The position numbers and the translations under genes were made by a program. From NCBI RefSeq assembly GCF_000564855.1, contig NZ_AYXG01000161.1:1-57181 (forward strand): a stretch of DNA of 57,181 nt. The letters run 5' to 3'. The notes beneath the pieces were generated by a model, which was not told where the DNA came from, did not search any database, and was given only the letters and a program-made list of their open reading frames with translations. Shown here one piece after another: positions 11,191 through 51,275 of this stretch (its first letter is position 1; each line of letters begins with the position of its first letter). Source of the DNA: Actinokineospora spheciospongiae (GTDB taxonomy: Bacteria; Actinomycetota; Actinomycetes; Mycobacteriales; Pseudonocardiaceae).

Positions 11191-11194
11191 ACCG

Positions 11195-11232: not shown

Positions 11233-11233
11233 G

Positions 11234-15530: not shown

Positions 15531-15571
15531 GCTCGGCGGCGGGGTGGTCGATTCCTGCCGGAGGGAACGTC

Positions 15572-32599: not shown

Positions 32600-33159
32600 G
32601 GCAGCACCTCCAGCGAGTGCGCGATGTGGACCGGTTTGGCCGCGCGGATCACCGCGGCCACGGCGGCCTCGGACAGCGAGTCGGGCACCCGGGGGCGGAC
32701 GGTGACCCGGACCCAGTGCTCCACGTCGGTCGGCGGGTCGGGCCGGGGGCGCACCGAGGACGACGTGCCGCCGCTCTCGGTGATCTCCACCTCCCCGTCC
32801 ACCACGACCTCCAGGTGCCTGCGCAGCCCGGCCATGGTGCCGCGCATCCGGAACAGGTCCACCGCCTCGGCGACCACCGCGCGCTGCGCCGACAGCGGCC
32901 AGCTCTCGTCCAGCAGCACGCCGAACCAGCTCGACAGCCAGCGGACGAACCCCTCGGGGGCCAGCAGCGGGTCGACGTAGCCGTGCACGCAGTCGATGGT
33001 GTTGATGATCGGGGCGAGCACGTCGTCGAAGGCCGCGGTGAAGCGCGCCGCGAACCGGTCCTCGGCGAACACCGCGGGCAGGTGGTCGATCAGCGGGTAC
33101 GGCGAGGGCAGCGGGGCGGGGGAACCGGGCACCACGGCCCGGCCGGTGGGGGTGCTCAC
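32596..33159 (-). CDS. eCIS baseplate/tail protein (tail-P2-I-like)
   Basis: The 187-residue protein has the phage tail protein I pattern: YPLIDHLPAVFAEDRFAARF, TAAFDDVLAPIINTIDCVHGYVDPLLAPE, FVRWLSSWFGVLLDESW and RLFRMRGTM-like AVDLFRMRGTMAGLRRHLE. A beta-rich end follows with HWVRVTVRPR. It probably forms part of the baseplate wedge with the J-type protein encoded just upstream, whose stop it overlaps (GTGA at 33159). It may replace the Afp12-type component; that equivalence is inferred. Confidence 0.75.
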   Translation of the reverse strand: MSTPTGRAVVPGSPAPLPSPYPLIDHLPAVFAEDRFAARFTAAFDDVLAPIINTIDCVHGYVDPLLAPEGFVRWLSSWFGVLLDESWPLSAQRAVVAEAVDLFRMRGTMAGLRRHLEVVVDGEVEITESGGTSSSVRPRPDPPTDVEHWVRVTVRPRVPDSLSEAAVAAVIRAAKPVHIAHSLEVLP

Positions 33160-35108
33160 GACCGCTCCACCCGGACCTGGTGGTCGTAGGAGAAGGCGAG
33201 CCCGCCCGCGCCCACCGGCAGCCGGGTCACCTCGGCGCCGCGCTCCCCGGTCACCGGGTTCGCGCCGTAGAGCCGCACGTCCTCCACCACGTCCACCCCG
33301 CGCACCGATTGCAGCAGCGCGAACACCTCGCCGTGCGAGACCCGCCTGCCGAACGCCCAGCCGGTGCCGTCCTCGCCGCCGGTCAGCGGGTTGATGAAGG
33401 AGTACAGCGCGGTCAGCGCCCTGGTGCGGACCTCGTCCGGGTCGAGCCGGGTGCGCGCCACCAGCCGGGCCACGACCGTGACGCCGCGGTAGCGGGGCGG
33501 TTCCACCAGGACCCGGGTGCCGACCAGCCGCACGTCGTCGAGCCTGCGGGCGATGCGCTCCAGGGTGTCGGCGGCGGGCACCAGGTCGGCGAAGAGCAAC
33601 TGGCCGTCGCGGTGCGCGGCGGCGGGCACCACGAGCACCTTCACCGCGCCGTGCGCCACGTCGTCCTCGCCCGCGGTGAGGCAGTGGATGCGGGCGACCT
33701 CCGGGGCGGCCTCGCGGGAGATGGCCTCGTAGTCCTCGGCGGTGACCGCGCGGCTGCGGGTGCGCAGCATGATCGGCCCGCGGGTCTTGGCCTCCTCCAG
33801 GGTCTCCCCGTCGACGCCACCGGAGGCCGGGTGCAGGTTGGTCACCCCGGCCACGAACGGGATGGAGCCCTTGAGGGTGTCCACGGCGTGGCGGGCGACG
33901 TTGCCGCGCAGGCCGCCGCCGCTGTAGTAGCGGCGCGCCCGGACCCGCGCGCCCGGCGGCGGGACCGCGCCGTACTGGTGCAGCCCGCGGTCGGGCAACC
34001 GCACGGCCGGGCCGAACTCGACCTCGCCCGCGACCCCGTCGAGCACGAAGTGCCGGTCGTGCGGGCCGCTGGTGGCGAAGCCGTCGACCTGCGTCCACTC
34101 CTGCCACCCGGTCTCCCCCGCCACCTCGATCACCGCGGCGTGCGCCCCGGCCAGGACCGGGGCGTGGTTGAGCCGGAACCGCTGCCCCGGCACGCCCTCG
34201 GACTCGCCGAGTTCCTCGAACTCCACGATCCGCCCGTGCACCGCCGCGGCGGTGGCGCCGACGGTGCCCGCGGCCAGCGACCGGACCACCGGCGAGGAGC
34301 TGTAGGACGGTTGTCCCGGCAGCGGTTCGACCACCCGCACCCGCAGCCAGCCCGCCCGCTGGTCCTCGATGACGCTGGCCTCGTGCCCGCGCGGCAGGTG
34401 CACCACGATCCGGCCGGACCGGTTGAGCCCGCCGGTCTCGTCGGTGGTCACGTCGCACCCGGTCCACCCGGTGCCCGTCCACGCCTCCCACACCAGCGGC
34501 GGGTGCAGCGGGTTGACGCCGACACCGGTGGTCTCACCGCGGAAGTCCAGCCGCATGGCGCAGGCGGGCGCGGGGTCGCGCAGGCCGATCAGCAGCGCGT
34601 CGTCGAGCTGCGGCGGTTCGCCGAACGCGGCGAACTCCTGGCCGATCTCGTGGGCGGTGGTCTGGTTCTCGCTGGCCACCCCGCTCCCGGAGACCCGGCG
34701 CACCGCGGCGATCGAGGTGGGCAGCACCGGCAGGTCGGTGATCGTGGAGAACACCACCGACTCCTCGCTCTCGGTGCGGGTGGTGGACACGGCCGTGCCC
34801 GCCCGGATCACCAGCGGGGACCTGGCCGGGGTGGACAGCCAGAACGTGACCGGCACCTCGGCCGGGGTGGGCGGCAGCATCCGCAGCCCCAGCAGTTCCA
34901 GGAACTTCACGTACAGCCGGTCGGGCACCCGGTCGAGCCGGTAGCAGAGCTGCTCGGTCATGAAGGCGAACGCCTCGATCAGCGTGACGCCGGGGTCGGA
35001 GACGTTGTGGTCCGTCCACTCAGGACAGCGCCGCATCACGTACCGCTTGGCGTCGTCGACCAGGTCCTGGAACCGCCGGTCGTCCAGGCTGGGGGCGGGA
35101 AGCACCAT
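33156..35108 (-). CDS. eCIS baseplate wedge protein (gp6/baseplate J-like)
   Basis: The 650-residue protein begins LDDRRFQDLVDDAKRYVMRR with WTDHNVSDPGVTLIEAFAFM, the conserved start of 'putative baseplate assembly' proteins. The C-terminal half has the baseplate-J core: GGLRGNVARHAVDTLKGSIP, NLHPASGGVDGETLEEAKTR and AVTAEDYEAISREAAPEVAR. It corresponds to Afp11/T4 gp6, which forms the ring that holds the sheath on the baseplate. ATG 35108 shares a base with the gp25 stop (TGATG). Structural role and placement are well supported by family and order. Confidence 0.9.
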   Translation of the reverse strand: MVLPAPSLDDRRFQDLVDDAKRYVMRRCPEWTDHNVSDPGVTLIEAFAFMTEQLCYRLDRVPDRLYVKFLELLGLRMLPPTPAEVPVTFWLSTPARSPLVIRAGTAVSTTRTESEESVVFSTITDLPVLPTSIAAVRRVSGSGVASENQTTAHEIGQEFAAFGEPPQLDDALLIGLRDPAPACAMRLDFRGETTGVGVNPLHPPLVWEAWTGTGWTGCDVTTDETGGLNRSGRIVVHLPRGHEASVIEDQRAGWLRVRVVEPLPGQPSYSSSPVVRSLAAGTVGATAAAVHGRIVEFEELGESEGVPGQRFRLNHAPVLAGAHAAVIEVAGETGWQEWTQVDGFATSGPHDRHFVLDGVAGEVEFGPAVRLPDRGLHQYGAVPPPGARVRARRYYSGGGLRGNVARHAVDTLKGSIPFVAGVTNLHPASGGVDGETLEEAKTRGPIMLRTRSRAVTAEDYEAISREAAPEVARIHCLTAGEDDVAHGAVKVLVVPAAAHRDGQLLFADLVPAADTLERIARRLDDVRLVGTRVLVEPPRYRGVTVVARLVARTRLDPDEVRTRALTALYSFINPLTGGEDGTGWAFGRRVSHGEVFALLQSVRGVDVVEDVRLYGANPVTGERGAEVTRLPVGAGGLAFSYDHQVRVERS

Positions 35109-35515
35109 CAGTAGTCCCCCTCGTCGGGAATGGTGTAGAAGGGGTGGACCAGGTTGCGCGGATCGTTCTCACCCTTGACCAGGTAGGTGATGTCGATGTT
35201 GAGCAGGTTCTCCTGGTGCTCGTCCGGGTGGACGAAGACGTCGCGCACGGTGACCCGCGGCTCCCACATGGCCAGCGAGTCGTGCACCTCGCGCTGGATC
35301 TGGGCGAACACCACCGGGGTGGCGCCCTCGAAGACGAAGTCGCGCAGCTTGGCGCCGAAGGCCGGGCGGAACGGCCGCTCCCCCGGGTAGGTCGAAAGCA
35401 CCAGCGTCATGGCCTGTTCGACCTTGCGGACGCCGCCGACGGTGGCGATGGTGCCGTTGCTGGTGACGTCGAAGGGGAACGCCCAGCCGCGGCCGATGAA
35501 CTCGTCTTCTGTCAC
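35108..35515 (-). CDS. gp25-like baseplate protein
   Basis: The 135-residue protein has the GPW/gp25 fold signature: GRGWAFPFDVTSNGTIATVG, VEQAMTLVLSTYPGERPFRP, FGAKLRDFVFEGATP and the end EPRVTVRDVFVHPDEHQENL. It is the Afp9/TssE equivalent that initiates sheath polymerisation at the baseplate. The conserved EPR motif, needed for sheath engagement in relatives, is intact. The GTG start at 35515 has GGAG seven bases upstream. It lies between the VgrG-type spike and the J-type protein, the usual eCIS order. Confidence 0.92.
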   Translation of the reverse strand: MTEDEFIGRGWAFPFDVTSNGTIATVGGVRKVEQAMTLVLSTYPGERPFRPAFGAKLRDFVFEGATPVVFAQIQREVHDSLAMWEPRVTVRDVFVHPDEHQENLLNIDITYLVKGENDPRNLVHPFYTIPDEGDY

Positions 35516-35524
35516 CGGGGGCTC

Positions 35525-37852
35525 CTAGATCGGGATGGGGACACCGTTGACCAGCGGCAGGCCGACGATGTTGACCGTCGGCGCGTTGAGCGTGATCGCG
35601 GTGGAGGACTTGATGACCAGGTTGGCGCCGCCGTCGATGAGCATGGTCCCGGTGGGTCCGGCGCCGATGTTGACGAAACCGTTCGCGGTGCTGATGTTGA
35701 TGTTGGTCAGCGGTGTGGTGGTCACCCCGGGCACCGGGGCGGCGGTGATGTTGACCCCGCCGTTGACCTGGTCGACGGTCACCCCGATCTCCCCGTTCTG
35801 CGAACCCACCCGCACCGCGGAGCCGAGCGCGCCCGCCCCGGGTGGGACGATCGGGCCCGCGCCGCCGCCGGTGCCGCCGCCCGCGTCCAGGTCCACCCCC
35901 ACCGCCTGCCCGGCCTCGGCCGCCGACGGCGCGTCGAGCGGGGCCGGGACGTCGTAGAACAGCAGGGCGTTGCCGGTGCTGGAGACGAACCCGCGGTGGT
36001 GGATCTCGGTGATCATGCCCGGGGTCAGCGCCGACCCGGCGATGGACTCGGTGGCCTCGTTGGCGATCTCCCCCGCGACCTGGTTGCCGATCGCCCCGCC
36101 CACCGCGCCGCCCAGCGGCCCGGCCATGGGCCCGGCCAGGGCGGCGCCCGCCGCCTGCCCGGCCATGCCCGCCACGGCGCTGCCCAGGCCGAGCAGCCCG
36201 CCCGCGAAGATCGGCCCACCCGAGGCGATGCTCCACTCGGTCAGGTTGTTCATCATCGCGCCGAGCACGTAGGGCCTGCGGGCGTCGCCGAACTCGAAGG
36301 CCACCAGCACCTCGTCGCCGATCTCCGGCATGAACATCGCGCCGCTGCGCTGCCCGGAGCAGAACTGCACGTTCGGCGCCCAGTCGGTCTCGAAGTCCGG
36401 GGACAGCCACGGCAGGGTCACCTTCACCCTGCCCTTGCCCAGCGGGTCGCCGCAGTTGCTGACCACCCCGCACACCACCCCGTCGAGCACCGGGTTGCCC
36501 GAGGAGCGCTTGGCGCCCTTGGAGGTCAGGCCGAGCATGGTGCGGTCCTGCCTGCCGTGCGCGGAGAACACCACCCGGTAGCCGAACTCGGAGTCGTCGA
36601 AGACGTGCCGGGCGCGGGAGACGTGCCAGGTGCCCGCGAAGACCGACGGCACACCGGACACCGAGACCTTCCCGCCCGGCTGGATGCCCGCGTTGCCCTT
36701 GGCCTCGCCCTCCGCCTCGGCGAAGGTGCTGCCGACGTCGCTGCCGAGCGCACCGGCGACCATCGGGCCGGAGGTGGCCATGGTGGTGCCGTCGGCGAAC
36801 GGGCGGTCGACCACCACGTGCGCGGTGTTGCTCGGCGGCGGGCCGAGGAAGCCCACCGGGGAGCCGACCAGCCCGCCGGTCGCCTGGGCCACCTCGTCGC
36901 CCGCGGCGTCGAGGGCGCCGTCGACGCCGTTGACCGCGCCGGTCAGGCTGAACGAGGTCAGCGAGTCGGCGGCGGACTCCAGCGAACCGGTGACCGCGCC
37001 GAACGCGCCCCCGGTGAACTGCCTGCCCAGGGCGTTGGGCGACGGGTCCGCCCCGACCGGGGTGGAGGTCGCCTGGGCCAGGGTCTGGCGCAGCATCGGG
37101 TCCCACACCCGGACCTCGACGTCCGGGGTCAGGTTGCCCGCGGTGACCCGCGGCCGGAAGCTGATCAGGTTGTCCGGGAACGCCACCTCGACCGTCGACC
37201 CGATGCCCGCCAGACCGGCCAGCACGCTGCGGCCGAACCCGGCCAGGCCACGGCCCGCCGAGGAGAGGCTGTCGCCCGCCGGGCGGAAGTGGAACAGCCC
37301 GCCCGCCACCCCCATCTCGAACCCGATCTCGGTGGCCCTGGCGCGCAGGAAGTCCCAGTCGGTCTGGTTGACCTGCGCCAGGTAGGCGTGCGTGGTGCTG
37401 GTCGCCACCACCTGCCCCACGCCCAGGCCCGCCTCCGAGGCCACCCGGCGGGCCACGTCGGCGTCGGTGACGTTGAGGAAGCTGCGGCTGCGCTTGGCCC
37501 GCTGGAGCCGGTGCGCCCCGGTGTAGCCGCGCACGACCGTGCGGGCGGTCAGGCCCTGCAACAGGCCCTCGATCGCGGTCACCTCCCCGACGATCAGCGG
37601 CACGCTCGTGCCCAGGGCGCCGGGGCCGCTCACCGTCACCTCCGACCCGATGGACAGCCCCGCCAGCGGCAGCGTGGAGCCGTCGAGGTCCAGGAACGTG
37701 AGCTCGAACATGCCGGGCAGGGCGACGTCGTTGTCCACCACCACCCGCAGCAGCCGCGAGTTGACGACCGGGCTGAGCGGCACACCGCCCACCGCCACCC
37801 CGGCCCGGCCGGTGGCCTCGCTGTCGGCGATGCGCTCGACCGGCTGGCTCAC
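35525..37852 (-). CDS. VgrG-like spike protein (Afp8-type) with Gly/Ala-rich insertion
   Basis: The 775-residue spike has an N-terminal gp27-like hub region (VVVDNDVALPGMFELTFLDL and the phage late control D-type segment RSFLNVTDADVARRVASEAG). A gp5-type OB fold is at about 470-540 (CGDPLGKGRVKVTLPWLSP, then FMPEIGDEVLVAFEFGDARR). The C-terminal part holds beta-helix-like strands (LIDGGANLVIKSSTAITLNA). A stretch at about 545-608 is almost only Gly, Ala and small hydrophobics (GSAVAGMAGQAAGAALAG), unlike normal VgrG. It forms the central spike that carries cargo. No separate PAAR tip gene is present. The GTG start overlaps the LysM stop by four bases. Confidence 0.88.
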   Translation of the reverse strand: MSQPVERIADSEATGRAGVAVGGVPLSPVVNSRLLRVVVDNDVALPGMFELTFLDLDGSTLPLAGLSIGSEVTVSGPGALGTSVPLIVGEVTAIEGLLQGLTARTVVRGYTGAHRLQRAKRSRSFLNVTDADVARRVASEAGLGVGQVVATSTTHAYLAQVNQTDWDFLRARATEIGFEMGVAGGLFHFRPAGDSLSSAGRGLAGFGRSVLAGLAGIGSTVEVAFPDNLISFRPRVTAGNLTPDVEVRVWDPMLRQTLAQATSTPVGADPSPNALGRQFTGGAFGAVTGSLESAADSLTSFSLTGAVNGVDGALDAAGDEVAQATGGLVGSPVGFLGPPPSNTAHVVVDRPFADGTTMATSGPMVAGALGSDVGSTFAEAEGEAKGNAGIQPGGKVSVSGVPSVFAGTWHVSRARHVFDDSEFGYRVVFSAHGRQDRTMLGLTSKGAKRSSGNPVLDGVVCGVVSNCGDPLGKGRVKVTLPWLSPDFETDWAPNVQFCSGQRSGAMFMPEIGDEVLVAFEFGDARRPYVLGAMMNNLTEWSIASGGPIFAGGLLGLGSAVAGMAGQAAGAALAGPMAGPLGGAVGGAIGNQVAGEIANEATESIAGSALTPGMITEIHHRGFVSSTGNALLFYDVPAPLDAPSAAEAGQAVGVDLDAGGGTGGGAGPIVPPGAGALGSAVRVGSQNGEIGVTVDQVNGGVNITAAPVPGVTTTPLTNINISTANGFVNIGAGPTGTMLIDGGANLVIKSSTAITLNAPTVNIVGLPLVNGVPIPI

Positions 37853-38721
37853 GACCGCTCCCCGGGTGCGGGCAGCCGCAGCGCGCGGCCGGGTTTGACG
37901 CGCAGCGGGTCGTCGAGGTCGTTGGCCTCGGCCACCGCGCGCCACGCCTGCGGGGAGCCGTAGGCGCGGGTGGCGATCTGCACCACGCCCTCCCCCTGGG
38001 TCACCACGTGCCTGGTGCGGCCGGGGAGGCCGCCGGAGGTGGGGTTGGTGCCCGGCAGGTACTCGGTGAACTTGACCAGGGTCAGGCCGACCTTGGCCCA
38101 CACCGGCACCCCGCTCCCGTCGAAGCGCTGGTACTCGATCTCGAACTTCTCCAGGTTGACCATCATGCCGCCGCCCGCGGGACCGCCGACGCCCCACATG
38201 AACTGCAACACCGGCAGTCTGAAGTAGACCGGTGGGCTGGGGGCGACCGAGGACGGGTCCGGGTCCTTGGTCAGCGGCGAGGAGTCGCCGCCGGGGGTGG
38301 TGCTGTTGGGCTTGAGGCTCATCCGCTCGGTCAGGGTGTTCCTGGCCAGGTCGAAGGCGGCGTTGACCAGGCTGGCGTCGGCCCCGGTCATCGGGACCGG
38401 GGTGGCCCAGGCGGTGAGCATGTCGATCGCCGCCTGGGTGACCAGGGCGCCGGTCAGGTGGGCTTCCTTGAGCTTGAGCCGGATGTTGCCGGTGGCCTTG
38501 ATCGCGTCCTTGAACGAGCTGGTGATCACACCGCGCTCGCTCTCGCCCTTGTTGGTCTTCTCCAGCGAGACCGACTTCGGGTTCAGCGTGAACACCAGCG
38601 GCATCCCGCCCTCCGCGGGCACCAGCATCGCCTTGGCGTTGCCGGTGAGCGCGAGGCCGAGGTTGAGGGCCTGGCTGAGCTTGTTGCCACCGCTCAGCGG
38701 CATGACCTTGGGGATGAACAT
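37849..38721 (-). CDS. LysM-domain hub/tube-baseplate adaptor (Afp7-type)
   Basis: The 290-residue protein has an N-terminal part that binds tube or hub (AMLVPAEGGMPLVFTLNPKS, VNLEKFEIEYQRFDGSGVPV) and a C-terminal LysM-like domain (HVVTQGEGVVQIATRAYGSP, WRAVAEANDLDDPLRVKPGR). It matches Afp7/T4 gp53-like proteins that link the spike to the tube. In this setting the LysM is structural rather than a wall anchor. ATG 38721 lies one base after the preceding stop; family proteins start the same way. Confidence 0.88.
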   Translation of the reverse strand: MFIPKVMPLSGGNKLSQALNLGLALTGNAKAMLVPAEGGMPLVFTLNPKSVSLEKTNKGESERGVITSSFKDAIKATGNIRLKLKEAHLTGALVTQAAIDMLTAWATPVPMTGADASLVNAAFDLARNTLTERMSLKPNSTTPGGDSSPLTKDPDPSSVAPSPPVYFRLPVLQFMWGVGGPAGGGMMVNLEKFEIEYQRFDGSGVPVWAKVGLTLVKFTEYLPGTNPTSGGLPGRTRHVVTQGEGVVQIATRAYGSPQAWRAVAEANDLDDPLRVKPGRALRLPAPGERS

Positions 38722-38722
38722 G

Positions 38723-39193
38723 TCACAGGAACCCTTCGTGATCCAGCTCCAGCCGCTCGATGGCGACCGCGCTGTCCTTGGCGACGAGGGAGGGGCCGTA
38801 CCAGCCGGAGGGGTAGACGTTGCGCAGCTCCCAGGACGACACCTCCTCCCAGGCGGAGTCGAGCAGGGTGATCCGCGCGGTGCTGCCACCGAGGACCGCG
38901 TTGAGGACGTCGGGCATGAACCCCGGCTGCTTCCAGGCGCTGAGCTTGTCGGCCAGCCACTCGCGCAGCACCTGCGAGGACGCCTTCTCCATCGCCCGCT
39001 CCAGCTTGACGGTCGGGTACTCGACGTCGGCGAAGAGGATCTTCTGGTACCCGAACTCCCCGTTGTCGTAGAACTTGTGGATCTTGCACTTGAGGTCCAG
39101 GCCCTTGCACGAGGTCCAGTTCCCCAGGTTCACCCCGTCGATGACGACGTTGAACCGCATCGCCATCCCGAGCGCGAGATTGGTCCCGCTCAC
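38723..39193 (-). CDS. Tail tube protein paralogue (Afp5-like, baseplate-proximal)
   Basis: The 156-residue gp19-fold protein has the signature LALGMAMRFNVVIDGVNLGN, WTSCKGLDLKCKIHKFYDNG and the C-terminal IERLELDHEGFL. It is one of three tube paralogues in the operon. Its position next to the LysM and VgrG genes matches Afp5, which starts the tube at the hub. The GTG start at 39193 follows GGGGAGGGGAG. Assignment as initiator rather than bulk tube is by gene order. Confidence 0.85.
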   Translation of the reverse strand: MSGTNLALGMAMRFNVVIDGVNLGNWTSCKGLDLKCKIHKFYDNGEFGYQKILFADVEYPTVKLERAMEKASSQVLREWLADKLSAWKQPGFMPDVLNAVLGGSTARITLLDSAWEEVSSWELRNVYPSGWYGPSLVAKDSAVAIERLELDHEGFL

Positions 39194-39218: not shown

Positions 39219-39674
39219 TCACGCGCCGTTCTGCTGCGCGGAGAGCAGGAACCCGGAGTAGACGATCTCCAGCGTCTCCACGGCCACCTTCCCCGCGGTC
39301 GCGTCGAACTCGCTGATCTGCCAGGCGATCGGGAACATCTCCCGCAGCGTCCACACGATCACCGAGTCACCCGCCGAGGTCAGCATCTCGACGGCCCCCT
39401 CCTCCGGGGTGCCGCCACCGGCCTGCACCTCGCCCAGCCAGGCCTGCACCGCCTTGGTGCCGGTGGTGTCGGCGGCCCGGCTGAGCTTGAGCGTGGCGAA
39501 CTTGGGCACCCCGGCGAACTTGAAGTACTGGTCGGAGTGCCCAACCCGGTACTCGGCCAGGTCCCACTTGACCGACAGACCGGCCACCTTGGACCAGGCA
39601 CCGAGGTCCCGCGACCCCGCGGACACCACGAACCGGTGCGCCATCCCGTGCGCCAGGGTGGGTGGATTCACCAT
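39219..39674 (-). CDS. Tail tube protein paralogue
   Basis: The 151-residue gp19-fold protein begins VNPPTLAHGMAHRFVVSAGS and has LGAWSKVAGLSVKWDLAEYR, FAGVPKFATLKLSRAADTTG, and the end VETLEIVYSGFLLSAQ. It has the same architecture as its neighbour at 38723 but is clearly diverged. It may be a second initiator ring or an alternative tube subunit. The ATG at 39674 has GAGGAGC upstream. It lies 10 bases after the DUF4157 gene stop. Confidence 0.84.
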   Translation of the reverse strand: MVNPPTLAHGMAHRFVVSAGSRDLGAWSKVAGLSVKWDLAEYRVGHSDQYFKFAGVPKFATLKLSRAADTTGTKAVQAWLGEVQAGGGTPEEGAVEMLTSAGDSVIVWTLREMFPIAWQISEFDATAGKVAVETLEIVYSGFLLSAQQNGA

Positions 39675-39684: not shown

Positions 39685-42600
39685 TCAGCCGAAGTCCAGT
39701 AGCGTGCCGGTCCGCTCGCGCTCGACCAGGACGTCGAAGCGCAACCGCCCGATCAGCGTGGTGTAGAGCCGATCGGCCAACTCCTCGAAGTGGTCCTGGT
39801 CGTCGAGGTCCATCCACCGCAGCGGCGGGTCCTCGACCAGGTGGTCGTCGATGTCGTCGAGGGACAACCCGGGGTCGGACCCGTCGCTGTCGTCGCCGTC
39901 CCCTGGCGGGCTGGAGCCCACCCGGGGCGGGCCGTCGTCTGTGGTGGAACCCGCGTCGTCCCGGAAGAACTGGTCCAGGGACCACTGCTGGTCACCCCCG
40001 GGGAGTTCGGTGGCCGACGGGATGGCGCGGATGTCCTCGGGGGTGATCCCGGACGGCAGGGCCTGCGGGCCCACACCCAGGTCGGTCGCACCCTTCGCCG
40101 CGACGGCGGCGCGGAGCCGGGCCAGGAACTCCCGCTTGCGCTCCTCGTCCTCCTCGGACCCGTCCTCGTCGGAACTCCCGGGCCGCGACACCTGCGGCAG
40201 GTGCCCGTGCACCAGGGGCGGAGCCGCCTGCACCCCACCGGCCACCCAGTGCTCCACGGCCACGGCCTCGTCCTCCAACTGCCTGCCCACGACGGTGTCC
40301 GGCCCCGGCAGCGCCGCCCCGAACCGCCGCTGCTGGGCGACGTGGGTCAGCTCGTGGGCCAGCAGCGGGGCGGCGGCACCGGCGAGGTCACCGGCCGATT
40401 CCGGCACGTGCGCCACACCGTCCCTGGCAAACCCGCGCGCCCCCATCCGGTACGCCACCCGGGACACGTCGTCCCCGCGCCGCACGGCCACGTCGGCCAG
40501 GTCGACCGCCAGCACCCGCCGCAGCGGTGCCACCAGGACGGCGGGGACGAAGCTCTCCACGGCGGACTGGACGATGGTGCTCACGGCCGCCACCCCCGGA
40601 GCCCGCTGGACGTCGGCGTACACCGCCCCGGTCGGGTGGACCACCTCGGCGGGATGGCGTGCGTCGGCGGGGTGGGCTCGGGTTTCGAGGTACCGCAGGG
40701 GCGGGGCGGCGGGAACCACAATGCCTTCGGGACCGCTGGGTGGGGTGTGCGGGCCGGGAACCAGGGGCGCTTGGTCGGTGTGCGCGTATGCCGCACCGGT
40801 CAGCGGTGCCGGGGCGGTGGAGCCGGGAGCCGAGGGGTCCATCGAGACCGGGCCGGACAATACGGCGGAGTCCGGCGGCGTTTGGTCCACTCCGGCAGGT
40901 GCGCCCGTGCTGACGTCCGGCGCCGGGGTGGCCTGCGGGGGCGACTCGGCGGGGTTCGTCAGTGCGGTTTCTGTTTCGATGGGGGAAACCACGAAAGCAG
41001 TGGGGCCCGGCGGCGGAGTCGCCGAGGGGGTTGCGTCGACCACCGCAACGGCAGGGGTGTCGGTGCTCGGCGGCAGGGGTGCCGGGCGGGGCGCGTCGAT
41101 CAACGGAGCGGGTTCCGGCACGGGGGTCGCCGCCGGGCTCGCGGTGGCGAGCGGGGTCGCGGGAGCCGAGGGGACTGATGAGACCGGGCCGGTGAGGGGG
41201 ACGGACGAGGCGCTGAACGACCCCGGCGTGGCGGCGGATTCCCCAGACCGGGCTGCGGGCTCAGGCGTCCGGGTGACGGGGTCGGCCGGGCGGGGGCGCG
41301 GGTGGCCGAGGTGGGGGTTCCGCGACGGCCGGGTGGCGGGAGCGGTTCCGGCCGGGAGGCCGCTGGCTCCTGGGGCCTGAGGGACGGACTCGGCCCGGAG
41401 CGCGCCGACCGACGGGTTCCCTTCCGGCGACCTGGTGGGCTGCGGGCCGTCCGGCGGGAGACCGCCGGACGGCGGAGTCACGGGCACAGCCGTGCGGCCG
41501 GTTCCGGCGAACAGCGAACCCGGTTCGGCGGCAGAACCCCACTCAGTGGCGGAACCAGGTGCGGCGGACCCCAGTTCGGCGGTGGAACCCGGCGTGGTGG
41601 AGGCCGGTTCGGCAGTCGAACCGGGTGTGACGGACCCCAGTCCGGTGGTCGAACCCGGTATGGCGGAACCCAGGTCGGCGGCCAACCCCGGCGTGGTGGA
41701 GCTGTTCCCGCTCGGCGGGGCAGCGGCTTCGGCAGCCATGGCGGCGGGGTGGAAACCACCGGTCACCGGGGCTACCGCACCATGCTCACCAGCCGCCGTA
41801 CTCTCGGTGGCCGCACCTCGGACCCGGCGGATGACAGGCAGGGCGTCTTTGGCCTGCGGAGGGTCCTCGTCCTGTGGGGAGGCGGGCGCCGCGTCGCGGG
41901 TAGCCGGTGCCGAACCCGGGGTCAATGGGATGCTGCCAGGCTGCGGGGCGGTGGCATTGGCCGGTGCGTTGAGGGGGACCGCGCCCGTGGCAAGCGGATC
42001 ACCGGGGACGGGGCTCCCGATCAGTCCACCGTCGGACGCAGCACTCCCGGAGAGGGGGTCGGCGGGCCTGGTCGGCGGGGTGTCCCACGCCGTGGCTTCG
42101 TCGCGCCGGAGCACGGGCAGCGGGGTTCCGGGTGTGGTCGGTGCGGGGGCTTCGACGGGAACGACGCGTGCGGGAGCGCCGTCCCGCGAGTCGGCAGGCA
42201 CGGCGGTTCCGGTGAGTGGGGTCGCTGGGACGCCCGTATCCCCTCGCCTGTCTGCTCGCTGGGTGGAGGGCGGGTCGTTGCGAGCCGGTGTCATGGGCGG
42301 GGTGGCGGGCGCATCCGGCGAAGTGGGCGTGCTGGGCCCGGTCTCCGGGGTGATGTGCGGCCCGGGGCATCCGGGCAGTGCGCTCGCATCCCGGTGGACA
42401 ACCGGCAACGCGGCTTCCCCAGTCGCGGTGGCGGGTGTCCGGGACGCCACCGGGAACACTGTCCCGAGCGGTGCCGCGTCCGTGCGCTGAGGGGCGGTGC
42501 CGATCAGCGGGGAGGCCGCGCCGCCCCCGGTTTTCACTGATGGGTCGGCTAACGGGAGGGAAACCTCGAGAGATCCCTCGGTGTTGGCCGCGCGAGGGTC

Positions 42601-44571
42601 GACCGGATCGACCTCCGGCAACGGAGTGGCAGGTGCGGGAGACTCGGACAGCGCAGCGGGATCGGATGGCGCTGGGGGGCCCGGCGGTGTCTGGGACTCG
42701 GGCAGTGGGATGCCGGTCGGGGGCTGTTCGTCGTGCTCGGTGGCAGCGTGGTCGGGTTCGACCGGCCGGTTCGCAGCGTGGGTCCACTGCGGTTCGGCGG
42801 TGGCGTCGTCCCACTCGGCCGTGGTGCCTGCGGCGGCTGAGGGCGGGCGCGTGGCGTGGATGAGCGGGGATTCCGGCGCGGGACCAGGAAACGCATTGTC
42901 CACTTCGGATATCAGGTTCAGTTCCCCGGCGAGGTGCGCGGGTGTGCCCGACGGCGCGTGCAAGCTCCCGGCCACGGCGGGGAACGAGGTGGGCGGGGTC
43001 GATCCCGACTCGGTGCCGGAGGTCGACGCGGCGGAGGCAGCCTGCTCCCGCTCGACACCGAAAACCAACCCAGCGGCAGCCACCTGCCCCGACTCAACAC
43101 CGGAAACCAACGCAGCGGTGGCAGCCTGCCCCAGCTCAGAGCCGGAAGCCGCCCCGGCGGCAGCCACCTGCCCCAACTCAACACCGGAAACCAACGCAGC
43201 GGTGGCCACCTGCCCCGACTCAACACCGGAAGCCGACCCGGCGGTGGCAGCCTGCCCCAACCCGGCACCGGAAACCATCCCAGCGGCAGCCACCTGCCCC
43301 GACTCAACACCGGAAGCCAACGCAGCGGTGGCAGCCTGCCCCGGCTCGGGGCTGGAAGCTGACCCGGTGGTGGCAGCCTGCTCCGGTGCGGTTCTGGCGG
43401 GCTCGTCCGGCGGCTGCGCCTCGGTGGGTTCTGCGGCGGCGGGGGGCGGGGTCGCCGTGGTCGGGGTGCGGCCCAGGCCGAGTCTGCGGCTCTCGGCCAG
43501 CGACGCGCGCCTGCCGGGCGGGCGCACCACCGGTGCCTGCGCGGCGGTCGGTCGCGCCTCCACCGAGGTCGGGAGTTCCGGGCGCGGGGTCTCCGGGCGC
43601 GGTGGTTCGGCCACCGGCGGGGGCGGCAGCCGGACCGGCGCGGGCGAGCGCTCCCCTTCCGCCTCCAGGTACAGCTCCGCCAGCACCCGGTCCTTCTCCT
43701 GGTAGGCCTTGTGCATGAACGCCGACGGCCGCACCGGCTTCTGCGGCACCACCGGCTCCGACACCCACCGGTCGTCGGCCACCGTGAGCGGCACCGGGGC
43801 CGCTCCCGCCCGCACTCGCACCGGCAGCGCCCGGGGCCGCGCCGCGACCACCACCGGCGGCGCGTACTCCCCCGCCGCGTCCACGGGTTCGGCGACGGGA
43901 ACCGGCGTCACGATCCCGGCCACCCGGCCGGGCAGCCCGGCGGACCGCTCGACCGCGGGTGCCACCGCGAACCCCGACAGCACCCCGAACGCCTCGGTGA
44001 CCACCGTCAGCGGCGGGTCGACCGGCACCGTGCCGGGCATCGCGGGCAGCGACCGCCACGCCGCCCGCCGCCGCCCCGGCACCTGTTCCGCCACCCGGGG
44101 CGCCGCGACTCGTTCCGCTGCCTGCTCCGCCGCGACCCGAGCGGCACCCGCACCACCGTCGCCCCCGACGAGGGGCGACGGCGCTGCTCCCGCCGCAGAC
44201 CGCGCACCCGGCAACGGCGGCCGCGAGTCCACACCGGACCCACTGGCGGGCGCTGTGGCCCCGGTGACGGTGATCGGCTCGGCGGCGGTGATCGGCTCGA
44301 CGGCAGTGATCGGCTCGACGGCAGTGATCGGCTCAGTGGCGGTGATCGGCTCGACGGCGGTCGAGTCGGTGGCGGTGATCGGCTCAGTGGCGGTGGCCAG
44401 CTCTGCGGCGGTCAAGTCGCCGGCGGTGATCGGCTCAGTGGCGGTGGTCAGTTCCGCGGCGGTCGGGTCGGTGGCGGCGGTCGGGTCAGCAGGGCTCGGG
44501 GCAGCCGTCGGGGCGGTGGTCGCGCCGGGGGCGGTGGTGCGGCGGGGGCGGCGCAGGGGCCACAGTGGCAT
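39685..44571 (-). CDS. Giant DUF4157 (eCIS core) protein with repeat-rich N-terminus
   Basis: This 1628-residue protein has five visible regions. Residues about 25-105 hold six-residue EPITA-type repeats. A Pro/Arg-rich part lies near 200-340, with MHKAYQEKDRVLAELYLEAE. Eight or nine 14-residue SGVESGQVAAAGMV-type repeats lie near 390-515. A long Pro/Ser/Thr/Ala stretch extends to about 1330. The DUF4157 domain has LLAHELTHVAQQRRFG at about 1403-1418, an HExxH-like metallopeptidase motif. The last 190 residues are very acidic and end in LYTTLIGRLRFDVLVERERT. DUF4157 is a hallmark of eCIS loci and often marks cargo or a tube-associated protein. No other effector or tape measure is seen, so it may play either role. 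ATG 44571 has GGGAGGA upstream. Confidence 0.8.
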   Translation of the reverse strand: MPLWPLRRPRRTTAPGATTAPTAAPSPADPTAATDPTAAELTTATEPITAGDLTAAELATATEPITATDSTAVEPITATEPITAVEPITAVEPITAAEPITVTGATAPASGSGVDSRPPLPGARSAAGAAPSPLVGGDGGAGAARVAAEQAAERVAAPRVAEQVPGRRRAAWRSLPAMPGTVPVDPPLTVVTEAFGVLSGFAVAPAVERSAGLPGRVAGIVTPVPVAEPVDAAGEYAPPVVVAARPRALPVRVRAGAAPVPLTVADDRWVSEPVVPQKPVRPSAFMHKAYQEKDRVLAELYLEAEGERSPAPVRLPPPPVAEPPRPETPRPELPTSVEARPTAAQAPVVRPPGRRASLAESRRLGLGRTPTTATPPPAAAEPTEAQPPDEPARTAPEQAATTGSASSPEPGQAATAALASGVESGQVAAAGMVSGAGLGQAATAGSASGVESGQVATAALVSGVELGQVAAAGAASGSELGQAATAALVSGVESGQVAAAGLVFGVEREQAASAASTSGTESGSTPPTSFPAVAGSLHAPSGTPAHLAGELNLISEVDNAFPGPAPESPLIHATRPPSAAAGTTAEWDDATAEPQWTHAANRPVEPDHAATEHDEQPPTGIPLPESQTPPGPPAPSDPAALSESPAPATPLPEVDPVDPRAANTEGSLEVSLPLADPSVKTGGGAASPLIGTAPQRTDAAPLGTVFPVASRTPATATGEAALPVVHRDASALPGCPGPHITPETGPSTPTSPDAPATPPMTPARNDPPSTQRADRRGDTGVPATPLTGTAVPADSRDGAPARVVPVEAPAPTTPGTPLPVLRRDEATAWDTPPTRPADPLSGSAASDGGLIGSPVPGDPLATGAVPLNAPANATAPQPGSIPLTPGSAPATRDAAPASPQDEDPPQAKDALPVIRRVRGAATESTAAGEHGAVAPVTGGFHPAAMAAEAAAPPSGNSSTTPGLAADLGSAIPGSTTGLGSVTPGSTAEPASTTPGSTAELGSAAPGSATEWGSAAEPGSLFAGTGRTAVPVTPPSGGLPPDGPQPTRSPEGNPSVGALRAESVPQAPGASGLPAGTAPATRPSRNPHLGHPRPRPADPVTRTPEPAARSGESAATPGSFSASSVPLTGPVSSVPSAPATPLATASPAATPVPEPAPLIDAPRPAPLPPSTDTPAVAVVDATPSATPPPGPTAFVVSPIETETALTNPAESPPQATPAPDVSTGAPAGVDQTPPDSAVLSGPVSMDPSAPGSTAPAPLTGAAYAHTDQAPLVPGPHTPPSGPEGIVVPAAPPLRYLETRAHPADARHPAEVVHPTGAVYADVQRAPGVAAVSTIVQSAVESFVPAVLVAPLRRVLAVDLADVAVRRGDDVSRVAYRMGARGFARDGVAHVPESAGDLAGAAAPLLAHELTHVAQQRRFGAALPGPDTVVGRQLEDEAVAVEHWVAGGVQAAPPLVHGHLPQVSRPGSSDEDGSEEDEERKREFLARLRAAVAAKGATDLGVGPQALPSGITPEDIRAIPSATELPGGDQQWSLDQFFRDDAGSTTDDGPPRVGSSPPGDGDDSDGSDPGLSLDDIDDHLVEDPPLRWMDLDDQDHFEELADRLYTTLIGRLRFDVLVERERTGTLLDFG

Positions 44572-44757: not shown

Positions 44758-45152
44758 CCGGTGACCTCACCGGCCACGTCCACCAGGAAGCGGTGGGCGC
44801 ACTCGGGGCAGGCGACCTCGGCCTCGGTGTGGCCCTGTTGGTTGACCCGGCGGTAGAGGTCCTGCAGGAACGCCAGGTCCGAGGCGAACAGGTGCTCCAC
44901 CACGAACCGGTCGACCACCGGGAGGGTGCCCAGCCTGCCCACCGTGCGCATCAGCAGGTAGATCGACAGGTACGCCGGGTTCTGCCGCACCAGGGGTTCG
45001 GCGTGGGCGGTCAGTTCGTCCTTGGCGGTGGCCAGCCGCAGCACGCCGTCGCGGTGGACGGTGCCGTGTTCGTCGGCGAAGCCGCGGGGCAGGACGAACG
45101 GGTACTCGGTGCGCAGGCCGGGCCCCGCGGCTTCGGCGGTGGCGGTCATCAT
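44754..45152 (-). CDS. Tail-assembly-chaperone-like eCIS protein
   Basis: The 132-residue protein has YPFVLPRGFADEHGTVHRDG, VLRLATAKDELTAHAEPLVR, LFASDLAFLQDLYRRVNQQG and a single CPEC motif near the C-terminus. Proteins of this length with the same 'LPRGF/DE/LFASDL' pattern lie between tube and DUF6760 genes in actinobacterial eCIS loci. They are usually annotated as phage tail assembly proteins. It may bind unassembled tube or core protein. It shares a base with the upstream stop (TGATG); a second ATG follows directly. Confidence 0.65.
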   Translation of the reverse strand: MMTATAEAAGPGLRTEYPFVLPRGFADEHGTVHRDGVLRLATAKDELTAHAEPLVRQNPAYLSIYLLMRTVGRLGTLPVVDRFVVEHLFASDLAFLQDLYRRVNQQGHTEAEVACPECAHRFLVDVAGEVTG

Positions 45153-45619
45153 CAGCCCTTCGTGAGGTCGATCTGCTCGCAGGTGAGGGTGACGGTGGCG
45201 ATGACGGCCTCGCTGCCGCCCGCTTTGAGGCCGCCGATCTCCAGCTTGGACGGCCAGGCGTTGAGGAGCTGGTAGGTCTGCTTGGGCACGTTGGCCATGT
45301 CGAGCAGGATCAGCGAGCAGGTGCGGCGGGCGGTGGACTGCCCGGCGAGGACTTCCTGGTGCCAGGTCCACAGCGCGTAGTCCTGGTCGACACCGCGCTT
45401 GAGGACGACGGTGGCGGGCTTGGTCTTGCCGAACTGCTTGGACATCGACACGCCGACCTTGCCGCTGGCCAGGTACTCGGTGACCTCGACCTCGGAGGTG
45501 ATGCCGGACATCTCGGAGAAGGTGATCTCGGAACCGCCGTCGAACTGGACGACGAAGCGGGCGGCGCTGACCAGCGTGGAGGTGTTGCTGCTGGCCATGG
45601 ACACGCGGGGCATGGTCAT
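45152..45619 (-). CDS. Main tail tube protein (Afp1-like)
   Basis: The 155-residue gp19-fold protein has VSAARFVVQFDGGSEITFSE, MSGITSEVEVTEYLASGKVG, TKPATVVLKRGVDQDYALW and the terminal strand IATVTLTCEQIDLTKG. Its place directly after the sheath gene is that of the bulk inner-tube subunit (Afp1/Hcp-like). AAGGAG precedes ATG 45619. The stop overlaps the next start, keeping stoichiometric coupling to the assembly-type protein. Confidence 0.9.
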   Translation of the reverse strand: MTMPRVSMASSNTSTLVSAARFVVQFDGGSEITFSEMSGITSEVEVTEYLASGKVGVSMSKQFGKTKPATVVLKRGVDQDYALWTWHQEVLAGQSTARRTCSLILLDMANVPKQTYQLLNAWPSKLEIGGLKAGGSEAVIATVTLTCEQIDLTKG

Positions 45620-45651: not shown

Positions 45652-47175
45652 TCACTCTTCGAGCGCGGCGCCCTGCGGCATCTGCGAGATGCGGAACACC
45701 ACGAACTCCGCGGGCTTGACCGGCGCGACGCCGATCTCGATGAACAGGTTGCCCGCGTCGCGGCTCTCCGGGGGGTTGTTCTCCTCGTCGCACTTGACGT
45801 AGTAGGCCTCGGAGGCGGATCGGCCGACCAGGGCGCCGCTGCGCCAGATGCGCTGGAGGAACGCGCCGACGACCCGGCGCACGGATTCCCACAGGTAGGC
45901 GTCGTTTGGTTCGAACACGACCCAGTTGGTCCCGTTGAGGATGGACTCCTCGATGAAGTTGAACAGCCGCCGCACGTTGACGTAGCGCCACTCCGGGTCG
46001 CTGGAGAGGGTGCGGGCGCCCCAGACGCGGATGCCCTGGCCGGGGAAGGCGCGCATGCAGTTGATGCCGAGCGGGTTGAGCTGCTCCTGCTCGGCGCGGC
46101 TGATGACCGTGTGCAGGGAGACCACGCCGCGCAGCACCTCGTTGGCGGGGGCCTTGTGCACGCCGCGGGTCTCGTCGCTGCGGGCCCAGACCCCGGCGAC
46201 GTGGCCGCTGGGCGGCACGGAGATCCGGTTGCCGCTGCTCTGGTCCATGACCTGCACCCACGGCCAGTAGAGGGCGCCGTACTTGGTGTCGTACCCGGCG
46301 AACTCGGTGCGCCACTCCTTGACCTGCTGGGAGTTGAGCCCGGGCGGCGGGTCCAGGACGGCCACCCGGTCCGACATCAGCTCGCAGTGCGCGACCATGG
46401 CCAACTGCACCGCCTTGACGCCTTCGGCGTCGATCAGGCCGTGCTGGTAGGCCGACATCAGGTCCGGGGCGAGGACCATGGTGATCTCGTCGATGGCCTC
46501 GAACCCGCCCAGGCCGGTGCGGTCGATCGGGTCGCCGACGTAGGAGGCGGCGCTGACCTTGGCGGGCGGCGGCGAGCTGGGCACCAGCGCGACGGCGGCG
46601 TCCTTCTTCGGCAGCGCGACCGCGGTGGACTTGCTGTCGTCCAGGGCGATCAGCTTGGACTGCTTGGCCACGACGGTGGCCACGTGGTGCGGGCCGCGCT
46701 TGGCGGTGACGTTGTCGAAGGACTCCACCACCTTGCCCGCGCGCAGCACGTCGAGCTTGAAGGTGTCCTCGCCGGGCTGGCCGGCCTCGCCGACCGACAC
46801 GCTCAGGTCGTCGCCCTTGGTCAGCGCCCGCACGGTGAACGCGGGCTGGTCGTCGCCCGACGCGGCGGGCACGACCGCGTGGTTGGCCGCGGGCTGCTCG
46901 CTGTCCACGGCGGGCTGGGGCAGCCGGATCACGTACGCGGCGCCGCCGCCGTTGAGGAAGTAGCCGTAGATGGACTGCGGCAGGTAGGCGCCCTCGACGA
47001 AACCGCCGAAGGTGCGGGTGAAGTGGGTCCAGTTGGTGACCAGGGTGGGCTCGGAGACGGGGCCCTTCTCGGCGAAGCCGACGAATCCCGCGACCGCCGT
47101 GCCGACGCCCTCGATGGGTTTGGAGCCGGACGACACCTCTTCGACGTACACACCTGGAGCCAGATAGTTGGGCAT
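45652..47175 (-). CDS. Contractile tail sheath protein
   Basis: The 507-residue protein begins NYLAPGVYVEEVSSGSKPIE and GVGTAVAGFVGFAEKGPVSE, the sheath N-terminal signature. It ends with the conserved tail-sheath C-terminal domain: WRYVNVRRLFNFIEESILNG, WVVFEPNDAYLWESVRRVVG, FLQRIWRSGALVGRSASEAY and FIEIGVAPVKPAEFVVFRIS. One sheath type is encoded here, rather than the two or three found in Afp/PVC systems. Subunits surround the tube and contract for injection. GGGGAG precedes ATG 47175. It is the first gene of the structural operon, and a palindromic operator lies 97 bases upstream. Confidence 0.95.
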   Translation of the reverse strand: MPNYLAPGVYVEEVSSGSKPIEGVGTAVAGFVGFAEKGPVSEPTLVTNWTHFTRTFGGFVEGAYLPQSIYGYFLNGGGAAYVIRLPQPAVDSEQPAANHAVVPAASGDDQPAFTVRALTKGDDLSVSVGEAGQPGEDTFKLDVLRAGKVVESFDNVTAKRGPHHVATVVAKQSKLIALDDSKSTAVALPKKDAAVALVPSSPPPAKVSAASYVGDPIDRTGLGGFEAIDEITMVLAPDLMSAYQHGLIDAEGVKAVQLAMVAHCELMSDRVAVLDPPPGLNSQQVKEWRTEFAGYDTKYGALYWPWVQVMDQSSGNRISVPPSGHVAGVWARSDETRGVHKAPANEVLRGVVSLHTVISRAEQEQLNPLGINCMRAFPGQGIRVWGARTLSSDPEWRYVNVRRLFNFIEESILNGTNWVVFEPNDAYLWESVRRVVGAFLQRIWRSGALVGRSASEAYYVKCDEENNPPESRDAGNLFIEIGVAPVKPAEFVVFRISQMPQGAALEE

Positions 47176-47360: not shown

Positions 47361-48029
47361 GTGCTGGCAGACATGGCTTCCTCGATCCGGGCGTGGCTCG
47401 ACTCCGAGCTGGCGCCCGGCACGGAGATCGGCTTCGACCCGCCCGGACTGCTCGCGGGCATCCAGCGCAGACCCCGGCGCGCGGGCATCCTCAACGTCTT
47501 CCTGTTCGGGGTGGCGGAGGACCTCGACGGGGTGCCCGCGGCGCGGGTGCGCGTGCGCAACGCCGACGGCCGGGTCACCGGCACGGTCGCCCCGCTGCGC
47601 AGCTACCACCTGTCGTACCTGGTCACGGCCTGGGCGGCGGACACGGTCGAGGAGAACGAGCTGCTCGGCGCGGTCATCGGCGCGCACGCCGAGCAGGACG
47701 CGCTGGGCGTGGACCACCTGCGCGGGTCGCTGCACGCCCTGACCACGGCGCTGCCGCTGCGGCTGGGCTGGTCGCCGGTGGCGCGGGGGCCGGACCTGTG
47801 GGGTGCGCTGGGGGTGCCGATGCGCACCGCGCTGGAGCTGACCGTGACCGCCCCGGCGCTGCCGTCGCGGTTGCGCCAGGCGGCGCCGCCGGTGCGGACG
47901 ATCGAGCTGGACGTGCACGACACCACCCGCTCCGATGCCGGGGCGAGCCCGTCCCAGGCGCCGCGGCGGCGCTGGGAGCGCACCACCATCACCGAGCACC
48001 GATCGCCGACGAACCCGCCCGCCCCCTGA
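47361..48029 (+). CDS. DUF4255 / Pvc16-type tail terminator (cap) protein
   Basis: The 222-residue protein has the Pvc16 N-terminal domain pattern: MASSIRAWLDSELAPGTEIG, FDPPGLLAGIQRRPRRAGIL, NVFLFGVAEDLDGV, and YHLSYLVTAWAADTVEENEL followed by LLGAVIGAH. Afp16/Pvc16 caps the distal end of tube and sheath and fixes particle length. A basic, Pro-rich C-terminal tail follows the core. The start is GTG 47361, with an ATG at 47373 as the alternative. It is divergent from the sheath gene and 24 bases upstream of the LAxTG surface-protein gene, so the two are probably co-transcribed. Confidence 0.88.
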   Translation: MLADMASSIRAWLDSELAPGTEIGFDPPGLLAGIQRRPRRAGILNVFLFGVAEDLDGVPAARVRVRNADGRVTGTVAPLRSYHLSYLVTAWAADTVEENELLGAVIGAHAEQDALGVDHLRGSLHALTTALPLRLGWSPVARGPDLWGALGVPMRTALELTVTAPALPSRLRQAAPPVRTIELDVHDTTRSDAGASPSQAPRRRWERTTITEHRSPTNPPAP

Positions 48030-51000: not shown

Positions 51001-51275
51001 CCGGCCCCGACCCGGTGGGCGGCGACGGGATCAGCGGCGGCACGGCGGGCGGCCCGACCCCGGGGACCGCCGGGGGCGGCTCGACGGGCGGCTCCACCTC
51101 GGACGCGGCGGGGCGTAAGTCCGACGGCGGCTTGGCCAGTACCGGTGCGGACATCGCCCTGCCCCTGGGCATCGGCGTGGCCCTGCTCCTGGTCGGCGGT
51201 GGTGTCCTGGCCGCCACGTCGCGCAGGCGCGAGGACGGCACCTCGCCGCTGTCGCGCTGGTGGCCCGGCGGCTGA
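48054..51275 (+). CDS. Large LAxTG-anchored surface protein with DUF11-type repeats
   Basis: The 1073-residue exported protein has a signal segment (YRIWAAIGLLLLVFAVVPGS). A globular N-terminal part of about 420 residues contains four or more cysteines (NSVLRCPVGEEVSGD, SFTSSRAEITIPAGATVRHA). Five or six Ig-like DUF11-family repeats follow, each with a Cys pair (TFTVDVRNDGALPLTGVTLT and later VTVRNIGDVPVVVEVDNDRA). It ends with a Gly/Pro/Ser linker, the sortase motif LASTG (about 1027-1031), a hydrophobic helix and RRR. It should be sorted to the wall by a class E sortase. GGGAG precedes GTG 48054. Linkage to the cap gene makes it a candidate adhesin or eCIS-related surface factor. Confidence 0.8.
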   Translation: MYRIWAAIGLLLLVFAVVPGSEVAAPGGVAPSTDVAQPGLLPAPPGPTVAPGYRDAVYGDFLQAGNSVLRCPVGEEVSGDHSPAECAAATAAAGPSDSALLDNSGNNNGYYMHLADDDGRPDSFTSSRAEITIPAGATVRHAQLNWGGHTGTFIGFSGVNCVRPLLLQGEPPPPPAAASPAQQQVRIAVAGGTPVPVRRDPAHFRTTDGLTEPSQLYSDWADVTRAFAGAPTGTPIPLSVSNVWAPTGPGCSGGWSVVVVFGYDEPRAPYTQPRVIDLYTDDLPKSGALLPGLIEPLVPGFPTLVDGLLPGLVPGLTGTSVVLPGVARNRSTADVAIGLTAYDGDWRQGGETFTVDGAAAVEPCGGRKTEDFFRSCAVGAVDPVDPAKRPVNNLSVDAKTIRPTLADNDSGEVEIGVAGIGDFVMVHNVVLAETVAPSISVVNTGPTEPVTQGELATFTVDVRNDGALPLTGVTLTDTSDPASEEIRCTPTALPPLAPGATTRVTCLQPAGAGPRFTNTATATGTYLVGPGGERRTVSASASAEVQVELPDYAVTRVPDRLVVREGDPVVFAVTLTNNTTAPLTGIAYADGAAPDCAGPTGTTLAAGTSTRFTCTATAPAESFESAGRLTGLDATGATVTITSQQVLVTVIAPAATIVTAVDEDTVYRGDSVELTFTVTNTGDEADEALSDLRVAVADLPDCAPDPIPSLAPGATAETTCTTTPSESLEVVAALTAVDVGGAGVTATAEPVAVTVLDPLITLTQQVDRTPVRVTEGVTLTFAVTSTATAAEGPVTDVRITSPTLPPDCLPEPIPTLAPGETATRTCTAVPDRSFDNQALASAVDGGNRLMRTQATPLRVTVINPALTISTTADREQAKHGEDVDFTVTVRNIGDVPVVVEVDNDRAPDCDFTLTGEGLRAGAANGIRCTTTTPTDDATTELKNTATYTASPTPAVGDTGEPLTGADDATITLLAGDAPPPPTPGPDPVGGDGISGGTAGGPTPGTAGGGSTGGSTSDAAGRKSDGGLASTGADIALPLGIGVALLLVGGGVLAATSRRREDGTSPLSRWWPGG

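Follow-up and report, generated by a model that had tools for sequence, protein, structure and literature searches.

Contractile injection systems (CISs) of Streptomyces coelicolor and its kin have been reported to be without a tape measure, according to the cited parts of two descriptions (PMC10066040; PMC10286715). In the cited part of a third, the tape measure is called absent, yet all analysed CIS-Sc particles were identical, each 268 nm long and with 60 layers in its tube (PMC12237407). The question of what could stand in for a tape measure is raised by a locus of Actinokineospora spheciospongiae, which we examined within a 57,181-nucleotide stretch of DNA (contig NZ_AYXG01000161.1), referred to here as the window. 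Among the CIS genes of the window lies a long gene with a DUF4157 domain encoded in it; the gene and its product are referred to here as X. The initial annotation had viewed the product as possible cargo or as a length ruler.

The locus and the anatomy of X

We identified the gene order sheath-tube-chaperone-DUF6760-X-gp19-hub-spike (Table 1). The gene set of type IId systems was present in the window, with both Pvc16 and a CisA-like gene, the latter named from its gene position and domain description and not from a sequence comparison with SCO4242. Read from its genes, the locus is a type IId CIS. Another locus (L134) has a sheath that shares 56% identity with the window-led sheath query and matched the PDB sheath (8bky/9gtp) over the full length.

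Table 1 Features of the CIS locus in the window and of X (residues are those of X)
Feature	Position	Strand	Remarks
CisA-like membrane protein	30317..32599	minus	zinc ribbons, low-complexity region, glycan-binding C-terminal domain
Baseplate J / Afp11-like protein	33156..35108	minus	
gp25 baseplate wedge	35108..35515	minus	
VgrG-like spike	35525..38197	minus	
Afp7-like hub protein, LysM-like end	37849..38889 (start not settled)	minus	weak, sub-cut-off Pfam CIS_tube match (8.7e-4); PHROGs baseplate/endolysin
Second gp19-family protein	38723..39193	minus	
gp19-family protein, tube initiator candidate	39219..39674	minus	directly downstream of X
X gene with DUF4157 in cis	39685..44571	minus	1628 aa from ATG
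Conserved C-terminal helix motif	39688..39804	minus	residues 1590-1628
DUF4157 / eCIS_core domain	40324..40536	minus	residues 1346-1416; HELTH at 1406-1410
11-residue TPGST-type array	41530..41664	minus	about residues 970-1014
14-residue SGVESGQ-type array	43018..43359	minus	about residues 405-518
Short motif RRASLAESRRLGLG	43471..43512	minus	residues 354-367
Conserved N-terminal box	43894..44058	minus	about residues 172-226; W..LP.....T....PLT ... GRV.GI; read by eye
EPITA array	44284..44436	minus	residues 46-96, six copies
Basic, aromatic N-terminal leader	44524..44571	minus	residues 1-16; usual family form M-R-W-P-F-R-R-R
DUF6760 protein, 56 aa	44587..44757	minus	directly upstream of X; Pfam 1.5e-9
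Tail assembly chaperone-like protein, 132 aa	44757..45152	minus	phrog_508, E=1.5e-7
Inner tube protein (gp19)	45152..45619	minus	
Sheath protein	45652..47175	minus	
Pvc16_N tail terminator	47361..48029	plus	

In the CisA-like protein, two zinc ribbons flank a Pro/Gly-rich stretch, and the glycan-binding C-terminal domain is of the NADase type. Adjoining the terminator gene, as also in several close relatives, a gene at 48054-51275 (plus strand) encodes a 1073-aa protein with DUF11, DUF7507 and CARDB repeats, in which a weak match to a LAVTG-type sortase signal was seen (26.1 bits, with a cut-off of 27).

The order of sheath, tube, chaperone and X is that of FI-FII-E/E'-T in phage P2, where the gene in the place equivalent to X carries the annotation putative tail length determinator. 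Tape measures of phages and CISs (P2 gpT, lambda gpH and Afp14) are, like X, long ORFs in the slot after tube and tail assembly chaperone, and share with it a predicted anchoring of the chain at the hub and a proposed role in length setting. They differ in that X is Pro-rich and non-helical, has no sequence match to them, and would span about 0.19 rather than 0.15 nm per residue. No similarity to tape-measure families was found for window X in Pfam, PHROGs or NCBIfam, nor for the X of L100 and L134. The tape measure, listed as missing in the initial annotation, is thus missing only by sequence match, since the X gene fills its slot.

The X ORF showed a coding-like GC pattern across codon positions, and the annotated 1628-residue DUF4157 protein proved to be real, with a profile match to Pfam eCIS_core (E=5.7e-9, 36.5 bits, cut-off 22) in which HExxH is present. 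It was the one DUF4157 match found in the source genome. The linker of 1330 residues before the domain has almost no helix-capable stretches; its Pro content is 17%, and a simple propensity rule classed 2% of its residues as helix-capable, compared with 65% for lambda gpH. Nothing follows DUF4157 but an acidic linker and then a short helix at the C-terminus, which relatives without DUF4157 also keep, and the suggestion of a processed toxin or protease end is accordingly not supported. A toxin domain after DUF4157 was rejected, as neither a toxin nor another C-terminal enzymatic domain was found beyond DUF4157 in Pfam and NCBIfam, and a C-terminal substrate-switch or flagellar-hook domain of the YscP/FliK type was absent among the two Pfam matches of window X. 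When whole window X was compared with the PDB, every match was at chance level (E >1), and no solved structure resembling the C-terminal helix was found there (best E=0.16, unrelated proteins).

The three repeat types that had been noticed in X are genuine: at lags of 6, 14 and 11, each array scored above every one of 2000 shuffles of the stretch concerned, and tandem arrays were also detected in the DNA. The EPITA copies begin at residues 46, 63, 74, 80, 86 and 92 (spacing 6, 11 or 17), the 14-residue SG-E-GQ units lie between residues 419 and 517, and the PGST units, of 11 residues each, occupy residues 971-1004. For the last array, given earlier as of 11-12 residues, the period is 11 and not 12, because self-identity was 43% at lag 11 and only 9%, at the level of shuffles (average 12%), at lag 12. 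The three repeat types are private to the source species. In its nearest relative (G011) none of them was found, and X is nearly equal in length (59 residues longer); repeats as ruler units were therefore ruled out, which weakens the proposed tie between repeat number and length. A further tandem repeat, of 55 bp in two copies with 87% matches, was found at the end of the window (57002-57113).

X in related genomes

When residues 1258-1628 of X were used as the query, 9 of the 16 genomes searched in the genus gave a match, as did 40 of 297 genomes drawn from the family, with the source genome included. We compared 21 loci selected by the presence of DUF4157 (20 fetched and the window, read as stop-to-stop ORFs), in which the position of X was identical throughout and HEL[TV]H was intact in every protein. 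An aromatic residue was found within the first 8 in all 21, while residues 6-21 were positive in 17. The relatives share, with variations, a start that is basic and aromatic (M-R-W-P-F-R-R-R), together with a W..LPPL box and often an RRLGLG motif, and their C-terminal helix ends in ...RLR.ELL.(D/E)RER.G.L.D.

A second survey was built on the sheath and was independent of X. It comprised 80 named loci, which were the best 80 of 585 confirmed ones (sheath alignment, 16 rows), and 40 Streptomyces loci picked by hand among the 192 sheath-positive of 392 genomes. X was whole, as one long slot ORF with the C-terminal motif, in 99 of these 120 loci, and was cut off at the contig end in 18. In one (L128), neither X nor the downstream CIS genes were found. 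The remaining two (L164 and L180) had X split into two or more ORFs, though the hub genes come after; a break in the frame puts the motif there on an ORF of its own. The model of this motif, which was trained on the tails of the slot ORFs themselves, gave 102 matches among 23,532 ORFs, 98 of them chosen slot ORFs and four in L164 and L180, where one was on the opposite strand. The N-terminal box was matched by a simple pattern in 62 of the 120 proteins and recognised by eye in many others printed. A chaperone homologue was present in 119 of the 120 loci, according to a model built on these loci, and the exception was cut off right after the sheath. By the rule used, 93 of the 99 loci that bear X have it between sheath and X; in the other six its stop-to-stop ORF starts within the sheath and also ends before X.

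X was also present in 12 of 15 loci examined from Chloroflexota and Deinococcota, behind the tube initiator and not before it, with a C-terminal end that was often recognised by eye. The other three were a fusion (L262) and two loci that end too early (L273 and L276). In L267, L268 and L270 (Chloroflexota), the C-terminal model matched a separate ORF of 58-75 aa and not X; this ORF, which resembles the C-terminal helix of X, sits near DUF6760. In L262 (D. grandis pDEGR-1; locus positions 11001-16451), the X ORF and the beginning of the tube gene form a fusion, and the locus looks degenerate because sheath fragments lie upstream and the genes between the tube start and X are missing. In Haloferax larsenii the chaperone was present and X was not found within a stretch of 25.7 kb. 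Across these genomes, X has conserved ends, an N-terminal box and a C-terminal helix, which are joined by a long Pro-rich linker, and DUF4157 lies inside it in some lineages only.

To count DUF4157 in cis and in trans, we used those named loci, 52 in all, in which the slot was complete and 6 kb or more lay upstream. The domain was inside X in 10, one of them also with a separate copy. Of the 42 X without it, 24 had a separate DUF4157 gene nearby, while for 18 none was found in the stretch examined. In the linkers of the 99 X, [VIL]QR motifs occurred 843 times, against a mean of 27 in shuffles. Their density was 0-2.5 per 1000 aa in the 13 X with DUF4157 and 3.3-31 in the 86 without it, a complete split. 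With 128 loci, the motif was low in 36 of 38 with the domain and high in 89 of 90 without it, with three exceptions. The split is a lead rather than a result, because it amounts to just four changes on the sheath tree, and it was not significant once kinship was counted. [VIL]QR is a possible docking or cleavage site. The motif recurs every 67 residues (median) in the DUF4157-less X of L065-L183, and it is also seen within separate DUF4157 proteins.

Length of X and of the particles

Besides the 268 nm given above, lengths of about 230 nm and an average of 295 nm (the latter in PMC10020575) have been reported for S. coelicolor, and the rise of the CIS-Sc tube is 38.5 A (PMC10066040). Particles of R. 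castenholzii measure 217 +/- 16 nm, or 251 +/- 26 nm in mat cells, and those of D. aquatilis 365 +/- 39 nm (PMC12998442). In our comparison, X from congeners stands in for that of the three imaged species, and baseplate and cap are taken as 37 nm (268 minus 231). The PDB sheath of CIS-Sc groups with Streptomyces group 2 (groups were assigned by hand), in which X has 1005-1392 aa (n=25, median 1208; 18 of 20 fetched loci, two broken ones being dropped, and 7 named loci). Counted from the first ATG, X of Roseiflexus has 872, 909 and 974 aa; X of Deinococcus has about 1490 (D. taeanensis), 1754 (D. actinosclerus), 1831 (D. psychrotolerans) and 1957 aa (D. aquaticus), the D. grandis ORF having been dropped as a fusion of tube and X.

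With these congener proxies, the tube would measure 0.166-0.230 nm per X residue in Streptomyces, 0.185-0.206 in Roseiflexus and 0.168-0.220 in Deinococcus. For the type III ruler YscP the value is 0.19 nm per residue. A fully extended chain has 0.37 nm per residue (PMC6972891). An alpha-helix of 1208 residues would reach 181 nm, less than the 231-nm tube. That X length tracks particle length over three genera, at about 0.19 nm per residue in proxy species, is suggestive only, since this rank order arises by chance in 1 of 6 cases.

Within Streptomyces, 35 random pairs were drawn in each of two groups. The median identity of X was 52% and 41%, against 90% for the sheath, while the length of X in the same pairs differed by a median of 4.8% and 8.4% (maxima 15.6% and 29.4%). 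In the same 10 genomes of group 1, the coefficient of variation (CV) of linker length was 0.058 for X and 0.274 for CisA (Levene p=0.014), whereas in group 2, where 4 of 10 genomes yielded a CisA, its CV was 0.05, no looser than that of X. Window X and that of G011, whose sheaths are 98% identical, aligned with 461 gap columns for the small net difference in length, a comparison which is weak alone because MAFFT gaps in divergent linkers come as compensating pairs. The 21 DUF4157-bearing X of the window's family range from 631 to 1687 aa (CV 0.33), so that, if X is a ruler, the particles must differ almost threefold in length. H. borinquense, a relative of H. larsenii, is described in the cited part of PMC11566945 as without a tape measure and with heterogeneous sheaths, which average 220 +/- 16 nm when contracted.

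Function of X

X is very probably a core component, associated with lumen or hub, in the tape-measure slot. That it sets the tube length is in our view the best single mechanism, with the chances for and against evenly balanced. Window X itself could equally well be, or not be, a baseplate-anchored disordered equivalent of a tape measure with DUF4157 in cis, the length-setting step being inferred. In such a mechanism, the C-terminal helix would dock on the tube initiator or hub, the disordered chain would extend up the lumen as the tube grows round it, and growth would end on arrival at the N-terminal box, with binding of the terminator. Tube length would scale at about 0.19 nm per X residue, beyond the 0.15 nm that an alpha-helix can reach, and the tube of the source organism is predicted at about 270-370 nm, or 70-97 rings. 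DUF4157 in cis may also take the role of cargo adaptor that the separate Sle2 holds in S. lividans.

The ruler idea of the initial annotation thus survives in part. Gene slot, wide presence, the constant length in Streptomyces and the rough proportionality of X and particle over three genera suggest a ruler, short of proof. In its favour are also the identical CIS-Sc particles, the heterogeneous sheaths of a relative of H. larsenii, where X was not found, and the deletion of sle1/sle2, after which no structural defect was apparent (PMC13277306, in the cited part). Against it stand the congener origin of the length data, the spread of the lengths published for S. coelicolor, the family spread in length, the CisA control of group 2, the Pro-rich, non-helical nature of X with no tape-measure family match, the small separate ORFs of the three Chloroflexota loci, and, in Haloferax, a chaperone without X and the contracted mean of H. 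borinquense. The type III rulers YscP/InvJ and FliK are secreted and partly flexible and their length scales with the tube, as proposed for X. They belong to another machine, whereas the X system has no export apparatus and X has no hook or substrate-switch Pfam domain. Somewhat more tentatively, type IId CISs might have swapped a helical tape measure for a disordered, type III-like ruler with the C-terminal helix as hub anchor and the N-terminal box as readout, into which DUF4157 was built in the lineage of the window, so that length control and cargo docking would reside in one molecule.

By gene order, X of S. coelicolor would be SCO4249, a tag that stands for PhoP in the one paper found to use it. 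The nine proteins modelled in the CIS-Sc structure do not include X in the cited part of PMC12237407, and the cited mass spectrometry text of PMC10020575 names SCO4242, SCO4256 and SCO4251 and not the X gene. Our literature search returned no earlier report on SCO4250 or on disordered length control in Streptomyces CISs, and among papers on CISs and tail assembly chaperones none was on type IId by title and the start of the abstract; in both cases others may exist. A widely present candidate for the slot makes the absence of a tape measure in the S. coelicolor CIS directly testable. If a disordered chain does measure a contractile tube, tape measuring needs no helical coiled coil, and particle size across the type IId class would follow linker length.

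The main rival is that X is a scaffold for loading, or cargo adaptor, anchored at the hub by its C-terminal helix and gathering effectors on its flexible linker, here by way of DUF4157 in cis and in other loci by VQR-type motifs together with a DUF4157 protein encoded apart. We consider this possible, though doubtful. Sle2, the DUF4157 protein of the type IId CIS of S. lividans, has the tube initiator and the effector Sle1 as interaction partners (PMC13277306), the N-terminus of X fits published features of eCIS loading (PMC11297309), and the excess of [VIL]QR in the linkers and its split by DUF4157 also speak for a scaffold. That split, however, comes down to the few changes on the sheath tree and is broken by 3 of 128 loci, and a scaffold leaves unexplained the gene order of chaperone and tape measure and the tight length in Streptomyces. 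Sle2 itself is small, separate and encoded beside the sheath, whereas in the window the domain is part of X. Sheath and terminator genes are 185 bases apart there, too close for a Sle1/Sle2 pair in between. For window X, ruler and loading scaffold may both hold, because DUF4157 is in cis.

An injected effector, or toxin cargo, is an improbable reading of X, with Tme of S. davawensis as its model. Tme likewise has a slot beside baseplate genes, DUF4157, great length and mostly disordered sequence, and it co-elutes with tip, spike and tube initiator (PMC11126660). X differs from it in carrying DUF4157 at the other, C-terminal end, in having a C-terminal helix in place of a nuclease or other C-terminal domain, and in that no tape-measure homology was found; the six Tme-type loci that were read have DUF4157 on the N-terminal side and a Pro content of 7-10%, and they lack both the VQR motif and the C-terminal helix. 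Less probable still is an unconstrained low-complexity expansion of the linker with no length function. Private repeats, fast drift and the wide length range in the window's family would fit it, but X is widely present with both ends conserved, and its length is tighter than that of the CisA linker in group 1. Least probable of all would be proteolytic activity of the HExxH motif in DUF4157, with cleavage of X or of cargo close to the C-terminal end; the motif is intact in all 21 relatives, whereas growth inhibition by the antibacterial effector Cgo1 was reported to be independent of the metalloprotease motif (as cited in PMC11297309).

The Tme-type Streptomyces proteins had 2103-2349 aa in the six loci read (L305-L310), with C-terminal ends unlike one another, and many Tme-type DUF4157 ORFs of Streptomyces among the matches listed were of about 2000-2480 aa.
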